This document shows positions 56,062 to 57,690 of a stretch of DNA of 64,000 bases, piece after piece (positions within the stretch are counted from its first letter, which is position 1; every line of letters begins with the position of its first letter). A program made the translations under genes and the position numbers. A model generated the notes under the pieces. It saw nothing but the letters and a program-made list of their open reading frames with translations. It was not told the origin of the DNA and did no database searches. Source of the DNA: Ideonella alba (lineage in GTDB: Bacteria; Pseudomonadota; Gammaproteobacteria; Burkholderiales; Burkholderiaceae_C); NCBI RefSeq assembly GCF_018069875.1, contig NZ_JAGQDF010000005.1, forward strand, positions 372,001-436,000, in the 5' to 3' direction.

Positions 56062-56697
56062 TCAGGGGGCGAGTCGCTCGCGCAGCCAGCGGCCGTCCGC
56101 CAGCCGGTAGCTCAGGCGGTCATGCAGGCGCGACACGCGGCCCTGCCAGAACTCCCAGCGCTCCGGCACGAGGCGGTAGCCGCCCCAGTGCGGCGGCCGC
56201 GGCGGATGCAGGCCATGGCGCGCCGCCGCCTTGGCGGCATTGGCCACCAGCACCGCGCGCGAGGCGATCACCTGGCTCTGCGGCGAGGCCCAGGCGCCCA
56301 GCCGCGAGTCCAGTGGCCGCGACTGGAAGTAGGCGTCGGATTCCTCCGCGGACACCTTCTCCACCCGGCCCTCCACGCGCACCACCCGCTCCATGACCAC
56401 CCAGTGGAACTGCAGCGCGGCCACCGGGTTCGCGGCCAGTTCCTGGCCCTTGCGGCTCTCGTAGTTGGTGTACCAGACCAGGCCACGGGCATCGACGCCC
56501 TTGATCAGCACGATGCGGGTGGACGGGCGGCCATCGGCGCCCACCGTGGCCAGCGTCATCGCGTTGGGCTCGGCCACACCGGCGTCGATGGCCTCCTGCA
56601 GCCAGGTCTCGAACTGCCGCAGCGGGTCATCGGCGGCCAGGTGTTCCTCAAGCTCAGCGCGCTCGTAGCTCTTGCGCAGGTCGGCAATGTCCTTCAT
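56062..56697 (-). CDS. pdxH: Pyridoxine/pyridoxamine 5'-phosphate oxidase PdxH
   Basis: This 211-residue flavoprotein makes pyridoxal 5'-phosphate. Family segments are [59 protein letters not shown] and the C-terminal [17 protein letters not shown] (PLP site, HDR). Length and start at [18 protein letters not shown] match the family. It is convergent with the hybrid kinase (3-nt gap). Confidence 0.95.
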
Positions 56698-56727
56698 GCC
56701 CCCAGTGTAGTGTTCGTGCTCAACCCG

Positions 56728-56995
56728 AGGGCCTGTTCGCACTACGGGAAGGGATTGCGTTGGTGCCCAGAAAGGTCGCAGGCAAGGCGCACACCACAGC
56801 CGGGTTGGATACCCGGCGCGGATGTGCAACGCCGCATGCGACCTTTCTGGGCTTCAACCCTTCGGGAAGGCCCGCCAAATCGGGCCACTCGTCGTTGCAC
56901 CGCTTGCCCGCACGTCAGTGCGGGCTGTGCGCTGCGTCTAGATTGGTCCGATTTGGCGGGCCTTCGCAACCCTTCCAGTAGTGGGAACAGGCCCT
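56728..56995. mobile_element. MITE-like nested palindromic element, about 268 bp
   Basis: The 366-nt gap between pdxH and the nucleotidyltransferase is filled by an element with imperfect terminal inverted repeats of about 31-32 bp. The left end starts AGGGCCTGTTCGCACTAC; the right end reads AGGGCCTGTTCCCACTAC on the opposite strand. Inside are two perfect inverted repeats: 15 bp (56766-56780 with 56837-56851) and 17 bp (56867-56883 with 56948-56964). Each encloses a further hairpin (GCCGGGT with ACCCGGC; GCCCGCAC with GTGCGGGC). No transposase is encoded and no target duplication was recognised. The element has no significant open frame. Confidence 0.75.
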
Positions 56996-57063
56996 AGGTG
57001 CAAGGCCTTAGGTGAACGTCCCAGCTTTGCGCCCCCGGTCGGCGGCGCGATGCTCAGGCCGTC

Positions 57064-57690
57064 ATGACCAAGCTTCCTGTCGTCCTGGTGCTGGCTGCCG
57101 GCCTGGGCTCCCGCTACCACGGTCCGCGCCACAAGCTGGCCGAGCCGCTGGGCGAGGGCAGCGTGCTGGCCATGACCGTGCGCCACGCGATTGCCAGCGG
57201 CCTGCCGGTGGTGGTGGTCACCACGCCGGCCCTGGCCGAGGACGTGGCCCCGCTGGTGGCGCGGCGCGATCTGGTGGTGCTGGGCGGACCCGGCGGCCAG
57301 CCGCGCGGCGGCATGGGCGACTCCATCGCCGCGGGGGTGTCGGCCCGCGCCTCGGCGCCAGGTTGGCTGATGCTGCCTGGCGACATGCCGCTGGTGCGCC
57401 CGCGCACGCTGCAGCAGGTGGCGGCGGCCCTGCAGAGCCAGCCCATTGCCTATGCGCAGTTCCGGGGCCGGCGGGGCCACCCGGTGGGTTTTGGCGGCGA
57501 GCTGTATTCCGAACTGGTCCGCCTGCAAGGCGACGAAGGTGCACGGCGCCTGCTGGTGCGCTATCCCACGCAGGGCATCGAGGTCGATGACCCGGGCGTG
57601 CTGGTGGATCTGGACACCGAGTCCGACCTGGCCGCGCTGCGCGCCCAGCTGTCGGGCCGAGGCGAGGACGCGCTGACGCCCTCAGAGTAG
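57064..57690 (+). CDS. MobA-like nucleotidyltransferase
   Basis: This 208-residue protein has the nucleotidyltransferase signature VLAAGLGSRYHGPRHKLAEP, then PGDMPLVRPRTLQQV (metal-binding Asp) and GHPVGFGGELYSELVRLQGD. This fits the MobA/MocA family, which transfers GMP or CMP to molybdopterin. Xanthine dehydrogenase maturation factors (MocA, XdhC-linked) are the closest described relatives. No other molybdenum gene lies in the window, so the substrate is not settled. Its 3' end overlaps the convergent chaC by 9 nt. Confidence 0.82.
   Translation: MTKLPVVLVLAAGLGSRYHGPRHKLAEPLGEGSVLAMTVRHAIASGLPVVVVTTPALAEDVAPLVARRDLVVLGGPGGQPRGGMGDSIAAGVSARASAPGWLMLPGDMPLVRPRTLQQVAAALQSQPIAYAQFRGRRGHPVGFGGELYSELVRLQGDEGARRLLVRYPTQGIEVDDPGVLVDLDTESDLAALRAQLSGRGEDALTPSE

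Follow-up and report, generated by a model that had tools for sequence, protein, structure and literature searches.

Bacterial MITEs are usually regarded as remnants of IS elements that share only their ends with the parent. The RUP element of Streptococcus pneumoniae measures about 107 bp and is not known to carry a conserved double hairpin. As far as the accessible part of a published account describes it, RUP is, like the element reported here, non-autonomous, directed to a TA target and bounded by ends like those of an autonomous element, IS630-Spn1, which belongs to another IS family (PMC2229807). The same part of that account describes the 127-bp ERIC/IRU sequences of enterobacteria, which are likewise intergenic with terminal TA and a stable secondary structure and which, compared by description, differ in their 7-bp terminal repeats and in being half the size (PMC2229807). 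The R0, R2 and R6 repeats of Pseudomonas fluorescens also have inverted repeats around a core and a tail-repeat-tail placement, with the inverted repeats of R0 and R2 held in common with resident IS, but in the available portion of their description they are 89, 110 and 177 bp long with one pair of inverted repeats; they were compared by description, including R6 against the single-hairpin type of element (PMC2718517). REP sequences and REPINs, marked by GTAG or CGTC tags, are likewise paired palindromes and often dimers in the part of the source at hand (PMC3733652), though they differ in their 20–40 bp palindromes, their tetranucleotide tag and the lack of long IS5-type ends. For the IS427 group of the IS5 family, the accessible text on the Paracoccus elements gives lengths of 832–865 bp, 2-bp repeats (4 bp in one case) and two overlapping ORFs in all save one (PMC3281130). 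This group resembles the IS with the same ends as our element in its ends, TA repeat and two-frame transposase, at 832–865 bp in Paracoccus compared to 801–829 bp for the same-ended IS (PMC3281130, as available), while the element itself differs in having no transposase and an interior unlike the IS.

Within the window, the 64,000-nucleotide stretch of DNA analysed here, a 268-bp unit with the termini AGGGCC...GGCCCT spans exactly 56728–56995. It separates the start of pdxH, which is on the minus strand, from a MobA-like gene that begins at 57064 on the plus strand; the gene names come from the sequence-only reading and from inspection by eye. That reading had described a MITE-like element filling this gap and its coordinates were exact. 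Of 16 genomes in the genus, the own genome among them, 15 contain a match to the pdxH frame used as a query. As called, the pdxH ORF (56062–56829, minus strand) begins at a TTG inside the element, upstream of the ATG at about 56698 that is the likely start. The left terminal inverted repeat (56728–56759, plus strand) has an outer AGGGCCTGTTCGCACTA that fits the family pattern and an inner part that pairs with the right repeat (56964–56995, minus strand), which has one mismatch to that pattern. The repeats are imperfect, as had been described: the outer 11 bp are perfect, 25 of the 32 outer positions match without gaps and the 29 nt at 56725–56753 and 56970–56998 are 90% complementary.

The interior of the unit consists of two nested palindromes of 100 nt each. 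Hairpin 1 (56759–56858, motif strand plus) has arms of ~25 bp and the tip CAAGGCGC...GCAACGCCG, and hairpin 2 (56866–56965, motif strand minus) is its inverted partner; the covariance model R1, which had the window copy among its own training sequences, scores them at 92.2 and 87.6 bits, respectively. The spacer between them (56859–56865) is part of a CCCTTCGGG mini-stem. Perfect inner repeats of 15 and 17 bp had been reported, and these are present inside the palindromes with corrected lengths of 16 bp (56765–56780 and 56837–56852) and 18 bp (56866–56883 and 56948–56965). The RNA minimum free energy of the element is −197.6 kcal/mol compared to −114.3 kcal/mol (sd 5.2) for shuffled sequences (z = −16.0, with 0 of 200 shuffles as low), in agreement with its earlier characterization as highly structured. 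The predicted fold is drawn as a cloverleaf due to the combination of the end stem, two hairpins and the short junction mini-stem. The unit had been said to contain neither a transposase nor an open frame; it encodes no transposase, but ORFs of 73 and 75 aa lie inside, one per strand, and are taken as putative chance frames.

The mobility proposed for the unit is supported by copies at multiple loci, by empty sites in a relative and by transposase genes between matching ends. The own genome (G000; 5.5 Mb, 36 contigs) holds four full copies on four contigs that are 87–100% identical. A search of 60 genomes, including the own genome, returned matches in 16, with the full span of the element (1–268) recovered in the own genome, G014, G022, G028, G024 and G012 and partial matches in the remaining matched genomes; the copy counts per genome are lower bounds, with up to 12 candidates scored in this search and up to 16 in the phylum hairpin search. 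Many same-ended copies were found at different loci, an outcome that the earlier reading had named as supporting mobility. Taken as an exact pattern, the ends occur in 96 of 299 family genomes (59 of 141 genera), with the reversed-pattern control found in one genome, and a broader end-pattern search located at least 119 loci. The taxa among the 80 titled matches listed include Burkholderiales, several Gammaproteobacteria (notably Thiodiazotropha), a Zetaproteobacterium, Acidobacteria, Desulfovibrio and other metagenome-assembled genome (MAG) contigs, the last of which may be misbinned; many of these matches show one end only and so represent candidate elements, and single ends near contig edges are left unclassified. 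The plasmid collection had no match to the element. Five viral contigs (L461–L465) have the end pattern, which in L463 and L465 is paired over spans of about 270 and 267 bp, respectively.

Among 109 distinct elements, 84 are 266–268 bp, 100 are 262–273 bp and nine are 283–325 bp in length, and the length of 266–268 bp is kept in those 84 although identity to the window copy drops below 70%. TA flanks are present on both sides of 82 of the 109 elements, on one side of 23 and on neither side of four, a count that is biased because many of these loci were found with end patterns that begin with TA. The 45 elements recovered by element BLAST or the hairpin model, with queries that did not include TA, are free of this bias and have TA on both sides in 29 cases, on one side in 12 and on neither in four. 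The base outside the TA is a pyrimidine at 180 of 187 TA ends.

The nearest relative, G014, has uninterrupted sequence at the sites of three of the four own-genome copies (the window, C4 and C17 copies), another outcome that had been named as supporting mobility; for the C30 copy, none of the 10 genomes searched showed a continuous empty site. Read on the window strand, the G014 locus has AGTGTAGTACCTAGGTGCAAGG at the window insertion site. At the left target site of the window copy (56726–56728) CGA stands in place of the TA, where the G014 empty site has CCTAGG, while the right target TA (56995–56997) is retained in CCCTAGG. The window copy keeps TAGGTGC on the right but has CCCGA and 12 extra bases on the left relative to G014, indicating that the left flank has been altered since insertion. 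Neither of the outcomes that had been named as contrary to mobility, a single copy in the genome or conservation at this locus in relatives, was encountered, as G014 is without the element upstream of its pdxH. A conserved intergenic region, considered as an alternative, is ruled out by this empty site.

IS elements with the same outer ends were identified in G326 (806 and 801 bp), Pelomonas sp. Root1237 (825 bp, with a right flank that ends at the end of the sequence examined), an Acidobacteria MAG (817 bp) and G104 (829 bp, with a differing inner end). The transposase is encoded in two overlapping frames in the G326, Pelomonas, MAG and G104 IS for which ORFs were listed. Transposase pieces of the same-ended IS match the Pfam families DUF4096 and DDE_Tnp_1, and all seven of the pieces match the NCBIfam IS5 profile NF033580 at E ≤ 0.001, four above its cut-off and three below. 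The largest number of end matches among the 299 family genomes occurs in G104 (50 matches). Ahead of the Pelomonas sp. Root1237 IS, two identical left ends lie 162 bp apart (L212, positions 1864 and 2026), possibly belonging to a small element beside or within the IS.

The matching transposase with similar ends that had been called for is thus present in other genomes, and none was found in the own genome. No IS-sized pair of these ends (≤1 mismatch) was among the matches listed for ten genomes including the own genome; a homologue of the C-terminal frame of the G326 transposase was found in G326, G104 and G140 among 17 genomes and not in the own genome; and a search of 14 genomes with the IS5_3 profile gave three sub-cut-off matches in the own genome, none with such ends nearby. 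No transposase with these ends having been found here, present mobility in this host is putative.

Collectively, the window unit is very probably a non-autonomous transposable element (MITE) with IS5/IS427-type ends. It is small (268 bp) and has no transposase gene, shares its ends with autonomous IS5-family elements in other genomes, is one of a set of copies mostly flanked by a 2-bp TA target repeat (retained on the right only in the window copy) and occurs as unlinked copies with empty sites in a relative. From the shared ends, the flanks and the empty sites, the unit would be inserted at YTAR targets, with duplication of the TA, by an IS5-family transposase of the IS427 type that acts in trans and recognizes the outer ~14–17 bp (AGGGCCTGTTnrCAC). 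An interior derived from the IS by deletion, which is usual for a MITE though not required, was not observed. Four elements compared to four IS (blastn) shared only the outer 10–20 nt, plus one 35-nt end match at 80%, and interior matches all had E values of 0.1 or more, without convincing similarity. The interior is instead common to elements with other ends, so the MITE-like picture of the sequence-only reading is sound but incomplete: together the nested palindromes form a module that is itself conserved and also resides inside elements with other ends.

Each palindrome is a hairpin of ~100 nt with a conserved bulged AGGC...CAAC motif borne on arms that vary in sequence and remain complementary. 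Alignment A1 was drawn from elements of 260–272 bp with two recognized hairpins and a motif score ≤6, which yielded 157 hairpins and 76 representatives of <85% identity. Of these, 71 were aligned and five omitted (L049, L098, one of two from L174, one of two from L187 and L259) because they were wrongly oriented, had a weak motif or contained undetermined bases. The 71 hairpins have invariant G28, C30, A70, A71 and C72 and the motif (C)AAGGCGC...GCAACGCCG, an apparent conservation that is raised by the motif-based filter. In the model-based hairpin set, the columns corresponding to the invariant A1 positions have A at 0.97–1.0 and C at 1.0. The motif fits poorly in two Acidobacteria copies (L213 and L259). 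Applied to the 71 hairpins, RNAalifold predicts 35 pairs, 34 of which have two-sided changes. Paired cells amount to 91.0% compared to 53.8% in shuffled alignments and 34.5–42.7% in slid controls, against which the structure is favored by having been derived from the same sequences, and the covariation score is 0.878 compared to 0.209; the paired-cell share and the score were reached by 0 of 500 shuffles, while the count of 34 pairs with two-sided changes was reached in 25 of 500 and is uninformative alone.

Searches for known motifs and families did not place the hairpin. The window copy matched no Rfam family at the gathering score and nine loci of other copies matched only tRNAs at E ≤ 0.05, and no IHF site, K-turn, primosome site or attC-like box was seen by eye in the conserved columns of A1. 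No description of the element or the hairpin was found in listings of the open literature, and it is possible that one exists under another name, for example among the Pseudomonas repeats.

Model R1 detected hairpins in seven of 12 near genomes including the own genome, in none of five congeners and, across the phylum, in 88 of 249 genomes at E ≤ 1e-4. In the own genome there are 19 hairpins, organized as five inverted pairs and nine singles. Listed pairs have the motif strand plus and then minus, about 8–10 nt apart, with L053 and L054 as exceptions. Three lone hairpins of about 100–104 nt (L341, L343 and L349) have no recognizable outer ends and are either remnants or a solo form.

The partial matches to the hairpin tips proved to come from elements that are built alike but differ in their ends. 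Four of the pairs in the own genome have AGGGCC... ends and the fifth has AGAGCCTGTGAAG... ends with TCA repeats; the singles carry AGAGGCTGA... ends (with repeats of TGA or TCA), AGGCRACGCTGAACA... ends or other ones, and in G022, G012, G015 and distant families further end types surround the hairpin. For the end class GGCAACGCTGAACAA, an IS in G028 has matching ends and encodes a 320-aa transposase that scores 322 bits against NF033581 (cut-off 140). The AGGGCC and GGCAACGCTGAACAA classes each match their own IS, and at least two end classes therefore correspond to two different IS5-family IS. As the same hairpin, single or paired, occurs inside several terminal repeats, the module appears to swap ends; its distribution gives good support to the view that the hairpin is a passenger in its own right with exchangeable ends, and we infer that the change of ends occurs by recombination. 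What is new beyond the sequence-only reading is this interior hairpin module with covarying arms, carried singly or paired inside several end classes. In these elements, across many families of Proteobacteria, the usual relationship between interior and ends is turned around: what is widely shared is the interior, and it is the ends that can be exchanged.

Arm mismatches in the 71 motif-oriented hairpins comprise 64 G-T, 27 A-C and 62 others. G-T exceeds A-C in 33 hairpins, A-C exceeds G-T in nine and the two are equal in 29. The excess is present on both locus strands (plus 37:16, minus 27:11), so that a bias from the folding step is eliminated. Another set, of 77 representatives that overlap in part with the first and were aligned by fitting to the model, has a G-T:A-C ratio of 131:40, with 113:34 in the 59 from later loci. 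The excess suggests selection on one folded strand, apparently the motif strand, and due to the two hairpins of a pair lying on opposite strands, each strand of a paired element offers one motif hairpin. G-T is better tolerated than A-C in DNA as well, so the asymmetry cannot separate DNA from RNA.

From these observations we propose a tentative reading, to which we assign a probability of roughly 0.45, that the elements are phylum-wide non-coding DNA passengers: a heritable ~100-nt hairpin, single or as an inverted pair of fixed spacing, would be read as one folded strand by a putative factor, with its ends exchanged to suit the resident IS5-family transposase and insertion at stop codons sparing host genes. 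The interior itself is a separate conserved module of two inverted ~100-nt hairpins with AGGC...CAAC tips, the arms of which drift in sequence while pairing is kept. By changing ends, the module appears to follow whichever transposase is available, at least one other end class matching another IS5-family element. In the weakest step, the preserved fold of the motif strand may act as a hairpin, either single-stranded or in a cruciform, to which a putative host or transposition factor binds. If the passenger reading is true, it raises the questions of what binds the AGGC...CAAC hairpin and whether the hairpin increases transposition or persistence, and it would explain a class of stop-codon repeats; R1 is ready for finding such hairpins.

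An end with TA outside reads TA|GGG, such that insertion into a TAA or TAG stop codon leaves TAG. Counted for flanks of at least 500 bases with a final T, the junction TAG ends an open frame of ≥100 codons at 74 of 163 junctions. Among the remaining YTAR sites of these flanks, 62 of 845 do so (odds ratio 10.5, p = 7e-30, a value made optimistic by the relatedness of the elements). For the elements recovered with TA-free queries, 33 of 66 junctions are of this kind. The excess probably arises because CTAG and TTAG are rare in GC-rich genes and the inserted end restores the TAG, which leaves the host gene unharmed; target choice and survival fit the excess alike. Among 30 single-hairpin elements, 16 have frames ending near both sides and five have frames ending from neither side.

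This placement at stop codons and between convergent genes would also be expected of an RNA element beneficial to the host, the transcript of which folds after the stop codon and alters the termination of the upstream mRNA or its stability, a role proposed for ERIC and the P. fluorescens repeats. ERIC affects the stability of upstream mRNA in the accessible part of PMC2229807, the stem-loop repeats of P. fluorescens favor tail-repeat-tail sites in the available text of PMC2718517, and, whichever way a paired element is read, one motif hairpin is presented. Yet a role in mRNA predicts that a single hairpin is co-oriented with the gene entering it, and of the nine informative one-sided elements among the 30, two are co-oriented and seven anti-oriented. 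That prediction is unsupported and the mRNA role is mildly disfavored, which is no proof of a role in DNA. No T-run terminator was found around the window copy, and the patchy presence and empty sites also weigh against a beneficial RNA. We therefore consider an RNA element unlikely.

A second alternative is an ordinary IS5-derived MITE, in which the gene was lost from the IS, the hairpins arose by chance or through repair without any function, and gene conversion between the arms keeps them paired. The ends do match IS5-family elements, and template-switch repair is known to perfect palindromes and could, rather than selection, account for some of the pairing between arms. In two G028 copies, hairpin 2 has its tip inverted in place, which also speaks for this alternative. 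However, the bulged tip is non-palindromic and nevertheless widely shared (five invariant positions in the 71 motif-filtered hairpins), the same hairpin occurs inside other ends, the interiors of four elements have no convincing match to the four IS, and the G-T/A-C asymmetry of the motif strand is not expected from repair. This origin is distinctly improbable for the module. The G028 inversions, in L053 and L054 as compared to L023, L036 and L043, leave the arms unchanged, are flip-flop-like and affect two of the five full copies.

A REP/REPIN-like element, with hairpins moved by a tyrosine (RAYT/HUH) transposase and IS5 ends acquired later, would share the inverted pair of conserved hairpins and the strand-specific fold but is very improbable, as the conserved columns of A1 have no GTAG or constant CGTC tag (the position of a CGTC at one end is GCAACGACG in part of the alignment and GCAACGCCG or others in the rest) and in most copies inspected the target repeats are TA or TNA and the ends are of the IS5 type.

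There is also a range of derivatives and apparent decay products. Derivatives of 167 bp have lost one hairpin between short direct repeats (CCTTCG in L055, ACGGG in L100), forms that fit replication slippage across a hairpin. Scars of ~26 to 55 bp were observed at L104, L109, L094, L106, L108, L007 and L011, some centered on a direct repeat; in these the ends are nearly joined, for example as the ~26-bp palindromes centered on AGCGCT in L104 and L109, and they are probably slippage deletions of the interior. Two mini-elements of 53 and 49 bp in G104 (L162 and L164) consist of almost only the ends, and with 50 end matches and a matching IS in that genome, these may be mobile forms rather than scars. 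At the other extreme of length, two G020 copies, L072 (1502–1799, 298 bp) and L101 (602–926, 325 bp), apparently have extra sequence in a hairpin tip, which in L072 is an inverted repeat.
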